From: Lentisphaeria bacterium
GTDB taxonomy: Bacteria > Verrucomicrobiota > Lentisphaeria > Oligosphaerales > Oligosphaeraceae
NCBI GenBank assembly: GCA_024405215.1
Contig: JAKSPB010000003.1
Span: 1 to 64,000 of the forward strand
DNA length: 64,000 nt
Reading direction: 5' to 3'
Shown here in pieces: positions 1 to 59,107 of this stretch; position 1 is the stretch's first letter, and each line of letters begins with the position of its first letter. Position numbers and translations under genes: made by a program. The notes below the pieces were generated by a model. That model saw only the letters and a list, made by a program, of their open reading frames with translations, was not told the origin of the DNA and made no database searches.

Positions 1-63
1 AAAAACTATACAAAAACTATACAAAAACTATACAAAAACTATACAAAAACTATACAAAAACTA
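1..63. repeat. Tandem 11-bp iteron array (site A)
   Basis: Five near-perfect head-to-tail copies of AAAAACTATAC run into a sixth, degenerate copy that ends with CTA. On the minus strand the unit reads GTATAGTTTTT. It is the same iteron as the arrays at 1871-2070, 18484-18634 and 58362-58466. The array starts at the window edge, so any inverted partner arm lies outside. The last unit supplies the TAG stop codon of the minus-strand SGNH gene. Confidence 0.9.
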
Positions 64-870
64 CCAAGTGTATTTAGGGTCAAAGAGATCTTCGCCGATG
101 GTTGCGATCTGGGTAAAGTCATCCAGATTGTGCCGGATGATGTAGTCCATGTAGGAAGTGAAGATCCGTCCTTTCAGGAGATATCCGGCAGGTGTCATGT
201 GCCCGTTCATGAAGAATTTCTTTGTAAAAGCTTCATCGACGACAGGCCCATTCTGGTATAAATCCATGAAATAGACGAAGCGCATTTTCTGGGAAAGTTC
301 CTGAAGGAAAGTCTGGATTTTCCTGAAATATGGCAGGCGTTCTTCTTCCAGCTTCATAAGGCTGAGCACCAGGAAGATTCGGCATCGTGGGCTGATTTCA
401 CGGTAGCGCTGGAGAATGGTAGCGTAATATCCCATGAAAGTTTTTTTATTGTTGTGGTAGTCCTGGAAGTCGATATCATCCCAGGTGCCGAATTCCACTT
501 CTCCGCAAAGCATTTGGCTGATGTCGTTGCATGCCAAAGTAACAACGTACGCATTGCAGGCCAGTTTCCGGTCCCAAAGGCCATGTCCATTTGCAAAAGT
601 CTCTACATATTCCATGGCGCTCATTCCGCCACGGGTGAAGTGGCGCACCTCATTTCCGGTCACCCGTCCGAAGTAGCTCAGCCAGGAATACTCGAATTTG
701 TCAATGCAGTAGCGTTTGTCCTGGGCATCAAAAATTTCGATTTCGCCAGAATCCAGGCTGTCGCCCACACAGGCCACGCTCCGCAGAATACCGCAGTAGC
801 CGCCATCCACTGCCAGATGCTCCAGGGACTTCTCTGCCGGATCGTCATAGAAAAATTCGTTCAGGTTCAT
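61..870 (-). CDS. SGNH/GDSL-type hydrolase
   Basis: Predicted SGNH-fold esterase or lipase-like hydrolase of about 269 aa; the substrate is unknown. Block I is seen as CVGDS near the N-terminus (nucleophile Ser in GDS). Block III is ACNDI, with the Asn expected in GxND. Block V is NGHMTPAGY near the C-terminus and carries the catalytic His, although the usual Asp of DxxH is not in its standard place. There is no signal peptide. ATG at 870 is preferred over a TTG 33 bases upstream; neither has a clear Shine-Dalgarno. The stop codon is contributed by the adjacent iteron array, so the original C-terminus may have been altered. It stands alone and diverges from the four-helix gene. Family assignment is fairly sure, function is not. 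Confidence 0.72.
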   Translation of the reverse strand: MNLNEFFYDDPAEKSLEHLAVDGGYCGILRSVACVGDSLDSGEIEIFDAQDKRYCIDKFEYSWLSYFGRVTGNEVRHFTRGGMSAMEYVETFANGHGLWDRKLACNAYVVTLACNDISQMLCGEVEFGTWDDIDFQDYHNNKKTFMGYYATILQRYREISPRCRIFLVLSLMKLEEERLPYFRKIQTFLQELSQKMRFVYFMDLYQNGPVVDEAFTKKFFMNGHMTPAGYLLKGRIFTSYMDYIIRHNLDDFTQIATIGEDLFDPKYTW

Positions 871-1183
871 GGAATAAACTCTTGGCAGGAATGCCGTTAT
901 CAAGTGTGTTGTGATTACACCAGAAGGCGCATGCCTTCAAATGGTTCGTCCTGATGATTTAACATAGCACGTTTTTTCTCCTCAATATTCGAGCCTTTTG
1001 CAAAAGGCTCGTTCTTGACGGTGTTTTTTGCATCGGGAATGTCCCGGGCGGTTCCGGCAGATACTCCAGGGCTTTACTGCACATCAATTTTTTGCTGATG
1101 ATTCCATTTTGGCTTTATTCCTGAATATTCTATGCTATATTATTCTTATAAAATTGCATTGAATAACAAAAAATTCTAATAAT
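871..1183. other. Intergenic region between divergent genes
   Basis: This 313-base gap carries the divergent promoters of the SGNH gene and the four-helix gene. The part from about 1110 to 1183 is very AT-rich, with several TATATT-like hexamers, but no single promoter stands out. The 22-bp palindrome at 990-1011 is listed separately. No coding potential is seen. Confidence 0.5.
990..1011. repeat. 22-bp perfect palindrome, TTTTGCAAAA core
   Basis: Perfect inverted repeat CGAGCCTTTTG/CAAAAGGCTCG. The same design recurs at 34820-34841 (perfect, one transition per arm) and 4087-4106 (one mismatch). No T-run follows directly, so it does not look like a simple terminator here. It may be a protein-binding site or a dispersed hairpin. 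Confidence 0.75.
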
Positions 1184-1876
1184 ATGAACAAGGTTTTTCA
1201 AAAACAACCACTCCCAGAACCCCTTCCCCGCGTTTTTCGTGAAGTCGTCAACTGGCGTGACCTGCATTTCTATCAGAAGGCGGAAGTGCTCTACCAGATG
1301 ACGGTGTTTTTCTGTCGGCGATTCCTTTTCCTGGGAGATCGAACCATTGACCAGATGACCCAGGCGGCACGTTCCGGAAAGCAAAACATCGCCGAAGGAA
1401 CAGAAGCGGGGAAAAGTTCCACAGAGACAGAATTGAAGTTGCTCAATGTAGCCCGTGCCAGTTTGGTAGAATTGCGTATTGATTATCAAGACTATCTTCA
1501 ATCACATCATCTTTCTCAATGGTGCTTCGGGAATGAACGCTTGCAGAAGCTGCATAAATATGGATTAAGCCATAATGCCTTGTCTGATTACGAACCTCAT
1601 TTCTCGAAATGGACAGCTGAGGAGTTTTGCAATGTCGGCATCACCCTCTGTTTTCAAGTTGACACTATGATGAACCGTTATATGGCATATCGGGAAAAAC
1701 TGTTTGTGACCGAGGGTGGCATTCGGGAAAGAATGTATACGGCTCGAACTGGCTATCGATCTGCTACGAAACAGCAGGTGCTTGCTTTGGAACAGGAATT
1801 GGCCGAGGTTAGAAAACAGCTGGCACAGGCACAGGATACCATTGCTCAATTGAAGCAGGAATTAGAAAATAGATAG
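1184..1876 (+). CDS. Four-helix-bundle (S23/IVP-like) protein with suffix domain
   Basis: A 230-aa protein. Residues about 25-108 match the four-helix-bundle family first known from proteins encoded in 23S rRNA intervening sequences; the hallmark stretch ARSGKQNIAEGTEAG lies near residue 68. Residues about 108-190 look like the suffix extension found in some members. The last 40 residues form a Glu/Gln-rich coiled coil. The molecular role of this family is not settled; related folds bind nucleic acid in diversity-generating retroelements (Avd). The gene is preceded by an AT-rich region and its TAG stop is the first unit of the iteron array at 1871-2070. That placement suggests it could be the protein partner of the arrays, which is an inference. 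The ATG start is unambiguous, though without an obvious Shine-Dalgarno. Confidence 0.8.
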   Translation: MNKVFQKQPLPEPLPRVFREVVNWRDLHFYQKAEVLYQMTVFFCRRFLFLGDRTIDQMTQAARSGKQNIAEGTEAGKSSTETELKLLNVARASLVELRIDYQDYLQSHHLSQWCFGNERLQKLHKYGLSHNALSDYEPHFSKWTAEEFCNVGITLCFQVDTMMNRYMAYREKLFVTEGGIRERMYTARTGYRSATKQQVLALEQELAEVRKQLAQAQDTIAQLKQELENR

Positions 1877-2070
1877 TTTCTGTATAGTTTCTGTATAGTT
1901 TTCCCCATTGGGGCAATCCGAACTAGGGTAGGCCTTTTCCCCTATCTATCACTATCCACAAACTATAGCCACTATCCACAAACTATCCTATCACTATTCC
2001 CCAATTCCCCACTATCCACAAACTATAGCCACTATCTACAAACTATCCTCCGCTATCCGCAAACTATCCT
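1871..2070. repeat. Inverted iteron array (site B) with internal 40-bp duplication
   Basis: The left arm (1871-1900) has three ATAGTTT-type units spaced 11 bp apart, followed by a CCCCATTGGGG hairpin centre. The right arm (1941-2070) carries the complementary units ACTATCCACAAACTAT many times. Two 40-bp blocks, 1950-1989 and 2010-2049, differ at one base, showing recent duplication inside the array. The array fills the whole gap between the four-helix stop codon and a point 12 bp upstream of the glycosyltransferase start. The promoter of that gene must therefore lie inside the repeat, or the genes are co-transcribed. Confidence 0.9.
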
Positions 2071-16765: not shown

Positions 16766-18489
16766 CAGACGCCACCCCACACGCTCCGGCTATTCTCCCC
16801 GTGATGCCATCCAGGCAGAAGCGTCTACGGCTTCTTTTGGCCACGGTATGCAGTGGCGTGCTCCTGGCTCTCGCCTTCCCGCCCATGGGCTGCTGGCCCA
16901 TCGCCTACGGCGCTCTCGTTCCTCTTTTCCTTTCTTCGCCGCCGCGAAGACTCTCACGCAGGTTTTTCTGCGGAATGCTCTTCGGGTATGTGCATTTTCT
17001 ATTCGCTCTCTGGTGGTTGAACTCCGTGGGCTTCGGCGCGGGGGCGTTATTGGCGCTGGTCTGCGCCTTCTTTCCTGCGCTATGGTATTGCCTGCACGGG
17101 CAGCTTTTGTGGTCCGCCAAACCAAAGGAAATCCTTTCCCGGGCCACGCCGGAGGAATGCAACCTTGCCTGCAGGCCTGGCGTAGGGCTCTGGGTGTTTC
17201 CCCGTCATTGGCAGCTCCTTCGCACGGCATTGCTCTCTGCCGCCGCCTGGACCGCTCTGGAATGGGTCCGCAGCTGGATCTTCACGGGCTTTCCCTGGAA
17301 TCAACTGGGCATCTCCCAGGCCTTCGCTCCCACGCGCGCGCTGGGGACCCTGGCAGGGCCATACGGAATCTCCTTCCTGATTGTCGTCGTCAATCTTCTG
17401 CTGGCCCGCGTCATCCTTCATGACAAGCCCTGGAAGTCCTTGACGACACTGGCATTGCTTTTCCTTTGTGTCTATGGCTGGTGCCTTCATGAACGGCATG
17501 TGAACCAGTCCCTCCCGCTGGTCGAAACACCGTTGCGCATCACTGCCATCCAGGCGGATGTCCCCGAGTGTCGCGAATGGACCGAAGAGGTGCTTCGCTA
17601 TGCTTGGCAACGCCACGCGGAACCAACCCGCCAGGCAGCCCGGACGGAATCTTCCGATTTGGTCGTGTGGCCGGAAGGCGCCTTGCCTTGCGTCTTGACC
17701 ATGCCTTTCTATGCGCAGGCGCTCCAGGGACTCCTGCGTGAAATCCAACGCCCTATGTTGATCGGAAGCCTGGACGAACGGGGAGGACCGCTGGGCGACG
17801 AGAACAACCAGTATTTCAATTCCGCCTTCTATCTCACGGAGAACTGTCCCGTGCTTCTCTCCCAGAACGCCGTTCGAAACAACTGCTACGACAAGATGCA
17901 TCTAGTGCCTTTCGGCGAATACGTTCCCTTTTCCGGATACTTTCCCTGGATTGCGGACATCATCGGCATGGGACGGGATCTGACGCCCGGAAAAGACTAC
18001 CGGCTTTTCCAGATTCCTGACGCCAATGGCGAGAAGCTTCTCTGCGGCGTGAACATCTGCTACGAAGACGTCTTCCCGGAAATCTCCCGCCGTTTTACGC
18101 AAGGCGGCGCACAGCTTCTCATGACCATTACCAACGATTGCTGGTATGGCCGCAGCGCGGGACCGTGGCAACACCTGGCCCATGCGGTTTTCCGGGCCCT
18201 GGAGAATCGCCGGCCGCTGCTGCGTTCGGGAAACAACTCCGATACCTGCCTCATCCTTCCTGACGGGACAATCTCAGAACCTATCCTTGGTGAGGACGGC
18301 ACGTCTTTCGGACAAGGATGGCATACCTACGCTGTCTATCCCGTTCGGAAAAACGCCCCTACGACGCTTTATGCCAGGACAGGAAACCTCTTTGCCATGA
18401 TCTGCACCCTGGCCACAGGGTTCGTCTGGCTGCTCTTCGTGCAAAGCTATTTTCTCCGCAAGGCAACTTTACAAAATAGAATAGGATAG
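16762..18489 (+). CDS. lnt: Apolipoprotein N-acyltransferase
   Basis: A 575-aa protein: about eight membrane segments, then a nitrilase-type domain (about 255-530). The catalytic triad can be read directly: Glu305 in WPEGALP, Lys378 in YDKMHLVPFGEYVP and Cys433 in NICYEDVFPE. It adds the third acyl chain to lipoproteins at the periplasmic face, which supports a two-membrane envelope. Slightly longer than the usual 500-520 aa, mostly by an insertion near residue 120. It overlaps exbD by four bases. The last codons run into the iteron array, whose first GGATAG gives the stop codon, so the C-terminus may have been rewritten by insertion. Confidence 0.94.
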   Translation: MTDATPHAPAILPVMPSRQKRLRLLLATVCSGVLLALAFPPMGCWPIAYGALVPLFLSSPPRRLSRRFFCGMLFGYVHFLFALWWLNSVGFGAGALLALVCAFFPALWYCLHGQLLWSAKPKEILSRATPEECNLACRPGVGLWVFPRHWQLLRTALLSAAAWTALEWVRSWIFTGFPWNQLGISQAFAPTRALGTLAGPYGISFLIVVVNLLLARVILHDKPWKSLTTLALLFLCVYGWCLHERHVNQSLPLVETPLRITAIQADVPECREWTEEVLRYAWQRHAEPTRQAARTESSDLVVWPEGALPCVLTMPFYAQALQGLLREIQRPMLIGSLDERGGPLGDENNQYFNSAFYLTENCPVLLSQNAVRNNCYDKMHLVPFGEYVPFSGYFPWIADIIGMGRDLTPGKDYRLFQIPDANGEKLLCGVNICYEDVFPEISRRFTQGGAQLLMTITNDCWYGRSAGPWQHLAHAVFRALENRRPLLRSGNNSDTCLILPDGTISEPILGEDGTSFGQGWHTYAVYPVRKNAPTTLYARTGNLFAMICTLATGFVWLLFVQSYFLRKATLQNRIG

Positions 18490-18634
18490 TTTTGGGTATA
18501 GTTGGGGATAGTTTTTGTATAGTTGGGGATAGTGTAGAATAGTTTCCCCAAAAAAACATAATTCTCCCAAAAAGCAAAAAACTATACACAAACTATACAC
18601 AAACTATACACAAACTATACTATCACTATAAAAC
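18484..18634. repeat. Inverted iteron array (site C)
   Basis: The left arm 18484-18545 repeats ATAGTTT/ATAGTTGGGG units. The right arm 18576-18634 has four exact-spaced ACTATACACAA units. The unit in common orientation is GTATAGTTTGT with 11-bp period. The spacer is AT-rich. The array occupies the whole space between the lnt stop, which it supplies, and the terminator of the opposing tRNA-Gln. Confidence 0.9.
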
Positions 18635-18665
18635 AAAACAGGGCTGTCGCCTTCGGCGACAGCCC
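18630..18665 (-). terminator. Rho-independent terminator of tRNA-Gln transcript
   Basis: Perfect 11-bp stem GGGCTGTCGCC/GGCGACAGCCC with a three-base loop. On the minus strand it is followed by TGTTTTGTTTT. It lies ten bases past the 3' end of the minus-strand tRNA. Confidence 0.85.
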
Positions 18666-28149: not shown

Positions 28150-28566
28150 AGATTTTCGTTTCTCCAAAAGACCAAAAGGGGCGGTTGGGTTACTATAATC
28201 CTCTCCGCCTCGTTTTCCTCTTTCTCTCTCATGGAAGATAGATGCTTTTGGAAGATAGATGCTTTTGCCATTGCCTCAAGTTTTTTGTTTTCAGGTAACT
28301 ATTCAGAAGGGAAGCTTGGAACCACGAATAGACACGAATAGACACGAATGGCTGGAGCAGGCAGGCGGTCCACAGGACCGCCTGCCTGCAAGGGCAATGT
28401 CTCCATTTGTGTTCATTCGTGTTCATTCGTGTTCATTCGTGGTTCAAAGCACCTTTTTTGAATAGTTGCGTTTTCAGAATTTATATGTTTTCTGTTCTTA
28501 TGTTATATGTTATATCCCGTTGAAAATGTTACCGTTGTGTTTAAAGTAACCCCATCGTCGAAAAAA
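28150..28566. other. Intergenic region with palindromic element
   Basis: The gap between two divergent genes. Most of it is the 171-bp inverted element at 28297-28467. The part 28200-28290 has a 12-base direct repeat (GATAGATGCTTTTG-like, at 28238 and 28254). The part 28470-28566 is AT-rich with TATATGTTATAT and likely holds the AraC gene promoter. No gene is supported; the small frames here read through the repeat. Confidence 0.55.
28297..28467. repeat. 171-bp palindromic element with 10-bp iterons
   Basis: The outer ends are AACTATTCA and TGAATAGTT. Inside, GGAACCACGAATAGACACG units on the left face GTTCATTCGT, three exact copies, on the right. The centre is a perfect 15-bp-arm hairpin, 28357-28371 and 28375-28389, with a three-base loop ACA. 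Similar CACGAAT-type inverted arrays are common beside four-helix-bundle and GxxExxY genes in other phyla, as I recall, but no such gene is next to this copy. Confidence 0.88.
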
Positions 28567-57447: not shown

Positions 57448-58353
57448 ATGCTCTCTGACCGGATCATCCAAAATGTGCGCGAAGGCGACAGGAAAACCCT
57501 CTGCGAACTGGACGCCAAGGGCCTTTCTCCTGCTGTGGGGGAAGGGGCGGAGGCCTTTGCCCAGCGTCTGGCGATTCTTCGGAAGAGCCTCCAGGAGTTT
57601 GAGCAGAAACTCTCTTCCCAGGGAGAGGCGAGGCTGGATGACCTGAGCGTCCAGTCAAAGGACCGCATTCCCCAGAGTCTCTATGAGACACCGCGGAAAC
57701 AGACCCGGCAGCTTTACGGCTTCGACTGCGATTGGGTGTCCGGTTTCTTTTGCAATCCGCGCTTCAGTTGGCTTTTCGGCGGTTGCACCTATTCCTATCC
57801 GCCGGATTTCTTCACCGTCTTCATCATCGGCGAGAGGCTTCGGAAACAGAAGAAATACCTCTGCTACGACCGAGACGAAATCTTCGCCCATGAACTCTGC
57901 CACGTGGCCCGCACCGGCGTGAACTCCATGGAGTTCGAGGAGCTCTTTGCCTATCAGACTGCCAGAAGCCCTTTCCGTCGTTTCCTGGGCGGGATGATGC
58001 ACTCCCAGATGGATACGCTGCTTTTTCTTCTTGCCTGCCTCTTCTTGGTGGCCGTGCAGGTCCTGCTTCCATTATACAATGCCGTTCTTCCTTCCTGGCT
58101 GGGTTGGGCGGTGTTCGGTGCGGTGATGCTTTTCTTCCTGTTGCGGCATGCCTATTCCTATCATGTCTTCCGAAAGGCTCTGCAGAAACTCCAGACGTTT
58201 TGCGGCAACGATGCCGCAAAGGCGCGGATGCTTCTTTTTCACGCCACGGATGACGAAATCCATCAGCTGGCTTGCACTGCGGATCCCAGTGCTCTCCTAA
58301 AGGAATATTCCGCTTCCGAACTACGCTGGGAAATTGCCTGCAAGAGGATTTGA
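57448..58353 (+). CDS. Membrane-anchored metallopeptidase-like protein (HExxH)
   Basis: 301 aa, not assigned to a known family. A helical N-terminus (to about 75), then YGFDCDWVSGFFCNPRFSWL and GGCTYSYPPDFFTVFIIG, then IFAHELCHVARTG near residue 149, an HExxH zinc motif, with Glu residues about 15 further on (FEELFAYQ) that could be the third ligand. Two membrane segments follow (about 190-235). A zinc protease facing the cytoplasm or membrane surface is likely. Its stop is nine bases from iteron array D. Confidence 0.6.
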   Translation: MLSDRIIQNVREGDRKTLCELDAKGLSPAVGEGAEAFAQRLAILRKSLQEFEQKLSSQGEARLDDLSVQSKDRIPQSLYETPRKQTRQLYGFDCDWVSGFFCNPRFSWLFGGCTYSYPPDFFTVFIIGERLRKQKKYLCYDRDEIFAHELCHVARTGVNSMEFEELFAYQTARSPFRRFLGGMMHSQMDTLLFLLACLFLVAVQVLLPLYNAVLPSWLGWAVFGAVMLFFLLRHAYSYHVFRKALQKLQTFCGNDAAKARMLLFHATDDEIHQLACTADPSALLKEYSASELRWEIACKRI

Positions 58354-58361
58354 AGGAGAAT

Positions 58362-58466
58362 AGGATAGTTCTTGTATGGTTCTTGTATAGTGTAGTTAAG
58401 GGGAACTATTTCCTTATCCAGTCACTATACACGAACTGTAGCCGCTATGCACAAATTATCTATCCT
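58362..58466. repeat. Degenerate inverted iteron array (site D)
   Basis: The left arm GGATAGTTCTTGTATGG with a second TTCTTGTATAG unit faces a right arm of ACTATACACGAACTGTAG and CTATGCACAAATTATC. The same 11-12 bp period and strand order as sites B and C, but with more mismatches, so it is older. It fills the space between two convergent stop codons (58353 and 58478). Confidence 0.82.
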
Positions 58467-58477
58467 TAATAAGTCAT

Positions 58478-59107
58478 TCAATATCTTGCCTGGATGGAAG
58501 GCAGTTCCTTCTGCATCAGGTCGCCTAGGTCCAGTCGCCAGTGGCATTGATTTGAGGAATCTACAACGCCGGTAGTCTGTTGCAATGGCGTTGGTGTCTG
58601 GAGGTGCAGAGTCATTTCCAGTCCGTCAACGGCTTCCAGCAGTTTGCGGGCAAAGGCGGCGCGCTGGGGATTCCAGTCAACGGTTTGCTTTGGGAGTTTT
58701 GCGATAAAAAGTCGCTCATCGGGATTTTGTGCGTCGTCGAGGGAGATTTCGCCCAGAAGTCCAGAGGCGAAAGCATCGCGAGCGCTGGGTGCGGAGAAAT
58801 CCAGCCGGATTCGCTGGCCGTTTGGGATGGTGTAGACGTGATACGCGTCCAAGATCACGGCCTCGGATTGTGCGAAATGCCGCTTTACGGCCTCTTCGTC
58901 CAAGGGGCCAAGATTATCGCCGTAGGACAATTCACGGGAGAGTCCTTTCAGGAGTCCGGCGGACTTGTTCGGGATGACATATTCCGTGCTTCCCTGGAGC
59001 GCGCCGTTTTCATCAATGTCGAGATTGATGTTCACGGAGACGGCCTGGAGTAGAATGGCGGCAAACAGTGCCATCCAGAAGAGCATATTATGGAGAAGAA
59101 AGCGCAT
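58478..59107 (-). CDS. Unknown exported protein
   Basis: 209 aa with an N-terminal hydrophobic stretch MLFWMALFAAILLQAVSV that is either a signal peptide or an anchor. The rest is soluble, with VNINLDIDENGALQGSTEYV repeated-strand character and no family I know. It converges on the HExxH gene and diverges from the transporter gene. Confidence 0.6.
   Translation of the reverse strand: MRFLLHNMLFWMALFAAILLQAVSVNINLDIDENGALQGSTEYVIPNKSAGLLKGLSRELSYGDNLGPLDEEAVKRHFAQSEAVILDAYHVYTIPNGQRIRLDFSAPSARDAFASGLLGEISLDDAQNPDERLFIAKLPKQTVDWNPQRAAFARKLLEAVDGLEMTLHLQTPTPLQQTTGVVDSSNQCHWRLDLGDLMQKELPSIQARY

Follow-up and report, generated by a model that had tools for sequence, protein, structure and literature searches.

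In the 64,000-bp stretch of DNA analyzed here (the window; bases 1-64000 of the 107,704-bp contig C23 of genome G000, which comprises 2.98 Mb in 82 contigs), a gene for a four-helix-bundle protein lies directly next to an array of short tandem repeats, and we consider it probable that gene and arrays form one genetic element which is mobilized in trans by the encoded protein. In its complete form, this element would combine the gene with inverted arrays whose cognate unit has 7-11 bp; a short form would lack the gene and comprise just an inverted array pair. Comparative sequence analysis documented the association of gene and arrays, the presence of the same unit on both flanks, the tracking of the protein by the unit, and a fixed polarity of elements whose protein lacks the suffix domain. 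It also documented that orthologous sites can be empty, array-only or complete, and that elements had inserted at operon positions where a stop codon meets a start codon and, in one case, within a 23S rRNA gene. Movement of the elements is thus supported by comparison; DNA binding or mobilization by the protein itself is inferred.

The preliminary description of the window had assigned a common 11-bp unit to four sites, three of them with facing inverted arms, and both statements were borne out by repeat inspection and pattern counts. Sites A, B, C and D share a unit centered on ATAGT/ACTAT. The pattern ACTATMNACAA, with one mismatch allowed, matched 21 times in the window compared to 1.8 expected matches (100 shuffles, maximum 5), and outside the four sites the core pentamer never exceeded three copies per 120 bp of the window. 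Array A (positions 1-63) contains a reverse arm only, with five units in one orientation (5.7 copies of AAAAACTATAC). The contig start cuts this array, as the window starts at base 1 of contig C23, and any partner arm would lie beyond it. Array B (1873-2078) is an inverted pair of three forward (GTATAGTTTCT-like) units followed by ten reverse (ACTATCCACAA-like) units. This array is not purely 11-bp, as it is partly built from a 20-bp two-unit repeat. Array C (18484-18634, also delimited as 18486-18636), with the end of lnt on one side and a tRNA-Gln gene on the other, is an inverted pair of six forward and six reverse units and is solitary, i.e., without a four-helix gene. Array D (58362-58466, also delimited as 58365-58435) is a short degenerate inverted pair with two versus two core units, flanked by ORFs at 57448-58353 (plus strand) and 58478-59107 (minus strand). 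In all these arrays the units follow each other head to tail, without the unique spacers that separate CRISPR repeats.

The four-helix gene (1184-1876, plus strand) encodes a protein of 230 amino acids. Its score of 63.4 bits against TIGR04258 (4helix_suffix, cut-off 40) places it in this family; it also reached 33.0 bits against TIGR02436 (cut-off 24) and 32.1 bits against PF05635, just under the gathering threshold of 33.8, and 33 of 35 suffix relatives match PF05635 with E ≤ 0.01. The protein comprises the four-helix bundle (residues 25-99), the suffix domain (145-193) and a C-terminal coiled-coil helix (180-229). For its AlphaFold2 model (mean pLDDT 94.3), the best solved structure was 2gsc, the crystallized four-helix protein Xcc0516 of Xanthomonas campestris (Foldseek probability 1.00, TMt up to 0.81). 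We recognized no domain of a nuclease, recombinase or polymerase in the window protein (Pfam, NCBIfam) or its relatives (Pfam), Pfam scans revealed no transposase domain in the window gene or the relatives, and the Y1 HUH transposase domain was absent from the window gene (Pfam, NCBIfam) and from 34 relatives (Pfam). Conserved polar residues (R63, S64, N68, E71, E83, E96, D100, N150, E182, R188) could have a structural or a catalytic role. At the C-terminus of 15 of the 35 suffix proteins we found a C4 zinc ribbon of the topoisomerase type, which hints at single-stranded DNA as a possible ligand; the window protein has the coiled coil instead. The earlier statement that the gene ends inside array B is literally correct, since the first unit of the array supplies the TAG stop codon (1874-1876). 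The gene is flush against the inverted pair rather than inside its loop, and the whole element lies between protein genes, not inside a 23S rRNA gene as an rRNA intervening sequence (IVS) would.

Genome-wide arrays were counted by pattern searches with reversed patterns as control. The search for the window array that had been proposed at the outset revealed dispersed copies: the unit gave 38 matches in G000, at about 16 sites (counted by hand) on a dozen contigs, and the reversed pattern one match. The 47 other genomes of the order, including both congeners, contained none. At every inspected G000 site with both arms, the forward arm precedes the reverse arm. The genome contains only two full TIGR04258 genes, each with its own array unit. 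The second one (C60:11816-12745) is bracketed by arrays of the 9-bp unit GTCGGACNN, which gave 358 matches in G000 versus none for its control pattern. As in RAYT/REP systems, a gene is flanked here by inverted copies of a repeat dispersed in its genome, with cognate specificity. The congeners provided no empty site for the window element, and their orthologues of the downstream gene (about 49-52% identical) are differently surrounded. Six G000 contigs (C12, C14, C29, C47, C64, C79) begin or end in or near arrays, and array counts in draft genomes are therefore lower bounds.

A missing association of arrays and four-helix genes across related genomes had been named as a refuting result, but the order-wide analysis showed an association. 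The suffix family is present in 42 of 48 genomes of the order, with up to 14 matches each. An array was found within 400 bp of 57 of the 70 full-length suffix genes and on both sides of 34; random placements in the same loci had an array nearby in 18% and on both sides in 1.2% of cases. Arrays covered 23% of the bases within 50 bp of these genes and about 1% beyond 1 kb, and some of the 13 array-negative genes showed short degenerate arrays by eye. The period was 9 bp in 63 of 97 suffix arrays. The two flanks were inverted to each other in 16 cases and direct in 19; this mixture arises because a complete inverted pair is often present on each flank. Locus L138 (genome G044) resembles a composite transposon: two nearly identical elements of about 200 bp, in direct orientation and each bounded by inverted CGACTAG arrays, enclose the four-helix gene.

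Suffixless ("plain") genes matching TIGR02436/PF05635 were at first taken as a control for the suffix genes. Arrays, usually inverted and with units of 7-8 bp, were present at 27 of 30 plain loci of the order, and the suffix domain was rejected as the cause of the association, as the suffixless genes are as strongly associated. A scan with a segment of Xcc0516 yielded 80 named loci from Proteobacteria, Bacteroidota, Planctomycetes, Acidobacteria, Chloroflexi, Nitrospirae, Firmicutes, candidate phyla and others, of which 68 had an array within 250 bp. Array coverage was 33% within 50 bp of plain genes and about 1.4% further out. Among 16 inspected plasmid loci (mostly cyanobacterial, plus Gemmatirosa, Azospirillum and Riemerella), 15 passed the array detector, which accepted 2% of shuffled flanks and 10% of distant windows. 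Many of the sampled genomes are metagenome-assembled, the sampling was top-ranked, and some contigs end in arrays, so that the association might be an artefact of repeat detection, sampling or assembly. The background rates of the detector and of random placement, the reversed control patterns (at most four matches, mostly none) and the same kind of arrays in finished plasmids and isolate genomes refute this reading at the level of the gene/array association, and we give it practically no credence. The period was 7 bp in 131 of 172 plain arrays. The idea that an 11-bp period, close to one helical turn, places the units on the same side of the DNA fails as a general argument, because the period is 7-9 bp in most relatives: units of 7, 8 and 9 bp are commoner than those of 10-11 bp and serve the same role.

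Plain elements have a fixed polarity. Flanks with equal period were inverted in 48 and direct in 8 cases. The 5′ array had more G than C in 94, 82, and 93% of three plain sets, the 3′ array in only 12, 23, and 8%, so that 77-94% of cases show G-richness on the 5′ side and C-richness on the 3′ side. Both neighboring genes are on the strand of the four-helix gene at 41 of 64 plain loci. This co-directionality inside operons, together with the location in rRNA, is in line with an element acting at the RNA level, in which the unit forms an RNA hairpin, the protein serves as an Avd-like RNA chaperone and movement proceeds via a reverse-transcribed RNA copy. A fold kinship of Avd with the four-helix family would fit such an element. 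So does the IVS RNA of Coxiella, which folds and is cut by RNase III (PMC4990558). However, co-directionality can result from selection or from an RNA step, and the topoisomerase-type zinc ribbons point to DNA. The reverse transcriptase family PF00078 was not found in G000, which is 97% complete, and is absent from 24 of 48 genomes, among them G002, which has 14 matches to the suffix domain. The reverse-transcriptase route is disfavored by this distribution, and we regard the RNA-level explanation as improbable.

The array unit covaries with the protein. Unit length tracks the subfamily, with 7 bp for plain and 9 bp for suffix proteins. For suffix proteins with 9-bp units from different genomes, protein identity and unit mismatch were correlated with r = -0.525, and none of 2000 permutations was as strong; for plain proteins, the correlation was r = -0.126 (0 of 2000 permutations) and came mainly from pairs above 60% identity. 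Part of this correlation may reflect common ancestry of gene and array rather than recognition, as the permutation leaves shared descent in. The units tested are also almost wholly confined to genomes whose gene carries them. Three consecutive copies of GGGAWTC gave 149 and 221 matches in Luteimonas and Dokdonella, whose gene carries GGGAATC or GGGATTC, versus 0 to 10 matches in 48 other genomes, all of which have four-helix genes. The unit TCGACNGNNA occurred in 8 of 48 genomes, and six of these, with 823 of the 827 matches, have a gene with such arrays. Four of the six were already known as gene carriers; the genes of the other two (L330, L331) were sought out because of the counts, and the arrays were confirmed at both.

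Cognate units and covariation require recognition only, and they would also be expected if the protein were a regulator that binds its arrays (for auto-regulation, nucleoid organization or RNA processing), with the array as operator of the gene, and if the arrays spread by slippage, recombination or another enzyme. The zinc ribbons suggestive of DNA binding, the failure to find a catalytic domain, and the presence of the gene's own 5′ and 3′ ends within the arrays are in line with such a role. It leaves without explanation, however, the inverted arrays of fixed polarity on both sides, the empty and filled sites of the gene itself, and the fact that gene elements have landed repeatedly in operons unrelated to each other as well as in 23S rRNA. 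We therefore judge a regulator unlikely, if still the most serious alternative to the mobile element.

Evidence for movement came from orthologous sites. In 79 genomes of the Luteimonas family, the joined flanks of the accB-accC junction were contiguous in 42 (counted by hand). In 19 genomes (18 and the query genome), the site was occupied by gene elements with inverted heptamers, and in four by array-only inserts with units differing from those of the gene elements. The remaining genomes contained 11 REP-like or other short inserts and one other insert, and two were ambiguous. The 19 filled sites may descend from one old insertion followed by later losses. REP-like palindrome pairs were seen at this junction in L388, L390, L395, L396, L400, L407, and L408, so that unrelated small elements share this landing site. 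The sharing would also suit a passenger model, in which arrays mark insertion-tolerant or recombination-prone sites and the gene is chance cargo. Cargo would not be expected to show subfamily-specific unit length, sequence covariation with the protein, a fixed polarity and bracketing at nearly all loci, and this model is very improbable.

A second empty site was found in cyanobacteria. The element of Calothrix brevissima lies between the TAA and the ATG of two genes, and at the corresponding junction in Tolypothrix, Aulosira and two Nostoc plasmids only 2-3 bp separate stop and start codon. Identity is about 91% for Tolypothrix and Aulosira and 76-91% for Nostoc. No clear target-site duplication was visible at the mapped cyanobacterial junctions. 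Fixation of all arrays at orthologous sites, which would have spoken against mobility, was not observed: the window unit is missing from both congeners, and at accB-accC as well as at the cyanobacterial plasmid site, empty and occupied versions coexist among relatives. In Azospirillum, the element is located inside a full-length LSU rRNA gene and is a classical IVS, whose stem is the inverted heptamer array.

Four-helix elements were also observed between cas6 and cas4 of type I-D CRISPR operons on plasmids of Anabaena sp. 90 and Pseudanabaena (L223 and L226). A survey listed '23S rRNA IVP' among the associations of CRISPR adaptation modules (PMC10910872), and the cas6-cas4 insertions may explain this association. 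On a plasmid of Dolichospermum UHCC 0315A (L417), the position of the Anabaena sp. 90 four-helix element between cas6 and cas4 is taken by a different inverted repeat, GTTGGGTT...AACCCAAC, the DNA being otherwise 99% identical. Owing to this repeat, the locus was rejected as a clean empty site.

The pairing of four-helix gene and arrays that the preliminary description had likened to RAYT and REP is supported, at the level of sequence, by the association and the polymorphic sites. In a mobile element of this kind, the protein would recognize the array unit in nucleic acid that is probably single-stranded or folded into a hairpin, and would be the trans-acting factor that copies or moves array pairs, a functional role like that of RAYT for REP. 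Strand breaking and joining might be performed by a host enzyme guided by the protein or by an unrecognized activity of its conserved polar residues. On this reading, the class would have 23S rRNA as one of its landing sites, and the IVS would be tolerated there owing to the removal of its hairpin by RNase III. Replication slippage might also enlarge solitary arrays with no involvement of the protein. Since decayed arrays persist in the absence of a gene, causality is not proven.

Several known systems share features with these elements. RAYT (TnpA_REP) is a Y1 HUH transposase, and REPs are imperfect palindromes of 20-40 nt. RAYT/REP/BIME/REPIN systems resemble the four-helix elements in that inverted copies of a short repeat enclose the gene, intergenic regions of the same genome contain dispersed non-autonomous inverted pairs, the repeat covaries with the protein, and array-only as well as gene-bearing sites exist. 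They differ in protein and termini: the present elements encode a four-helix bundle and end in tandem arrays of 7-11 bp units. Because no Y1 transposase domain was found, the four-helix element is not a member of the RAYT/REP family. MITEs and IS elements likewise have inverted ends, gene-free short forms and insertion polymorphism; unlike these and DDE transposons, the four-helix element has no transposase, no clear target-site duplication and ends that are arrays of variable copy number. Avd of diversity-generating retroelements (DGRs) is a four-helix-bundle nucleic-acid-binding oligomer; in contrast to those retroelements, no reverse transcriptase (PF00078: none in G000), template repeat or variable repeat is present here. 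The four-helix element is not a CRISPR, a DGR or a typical IS.

A further relationship is to the 23S rRNA IVS with its S23p/IVP protein (PF05635, TIGR02436), which belongs to the same family and is encoded between inverted ends. The Coxiella IVS has GACAGAT heptamers ahead of its ORF and an inverted stem of 28 bp, and excision of its hairpin by RNase III was reported (PMC4990558). Descriptions of IVSs are restricted to rRNA and call their origin and function unclear, whereas rRNA would here be one landing site of a genome-wide element, and the array-ended class includes the IVS/S23p elements as a special case. In the open-access papers found, tandem arrays were not described as defining IVS ends, and none linked four-helix genes to tandem arrays genome-wide, heptamers being noted in one rRNA IVS.

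Dispersed intergenic heptamer arrays similar to those described here have been published for Xanthomonas (GGGAATC) and Nostoc (GGGGAYT) (PMC4692102), as STRR repeats of cyanobacteria, and as TAACTGA repeats of Beggiatoaceae (PMC4679880). Those of X. campestris comprise 186 previously unexplained GGGAATC arrays, with 70 cases of convergent pairs (PMC4692102), and GGGAATC is the unit flanking the Luteimonas four-helix gene. In contrast to our reading, the published heptamers were interpreted as G-quadruplex or regulatory repeats, no protein was assigned to them, and a connection to mobile elements was generally not made. The four-helix gene is a candidate source of these arrays, Xanthomonas and Nostoc being compared by their published units.

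Taken beyond the window, the data make it rather likely that the four-helix elements represent a widespread new class of bacterial mobile elements, with inverted arrays of 7-11 bp units as ends and the four-helix protein, in variants with suffix and zinc ribbon too, as the only encoded product, which would recognize the unit and spread it in trans. Such a class would account for the origin of both the 23S rRNA intervening sequences and the heptamer arrays of cyanobacteria, xanthomonads and many other bacteria. Tandem arrays of 6-9 bp units and the S23p/IVP family have both been known for decades, each without a settled function, and their link would provide one testable explanation for both. 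It ties the intervening sequences to a genome-wide element class in many bacterial phyla, suggests a mobile element without a recognizable transposase, and predicts both the unit of a genome from its four-helix gene and genomes free of arrays. Should binding of the protein to its unit prove specific, the naturally occurring protein/unit pairs would be a ready-made recognition code for a small helical protein.

A separate inverted array (CACGAATAGA / TTCATTCGTG) surrounds a long palindrome at positions 28323-28446 of the window. Units of the same style flank GxxExxY genes (TIGR04256, PD-(D/E)XK-like; L160-L189), at which arrays, nearly all with a period of 9-10 bp, were found in 23 of 30 cases in the order. 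These nuclease-like genes may define a second element class with 9-10 bp arrays.
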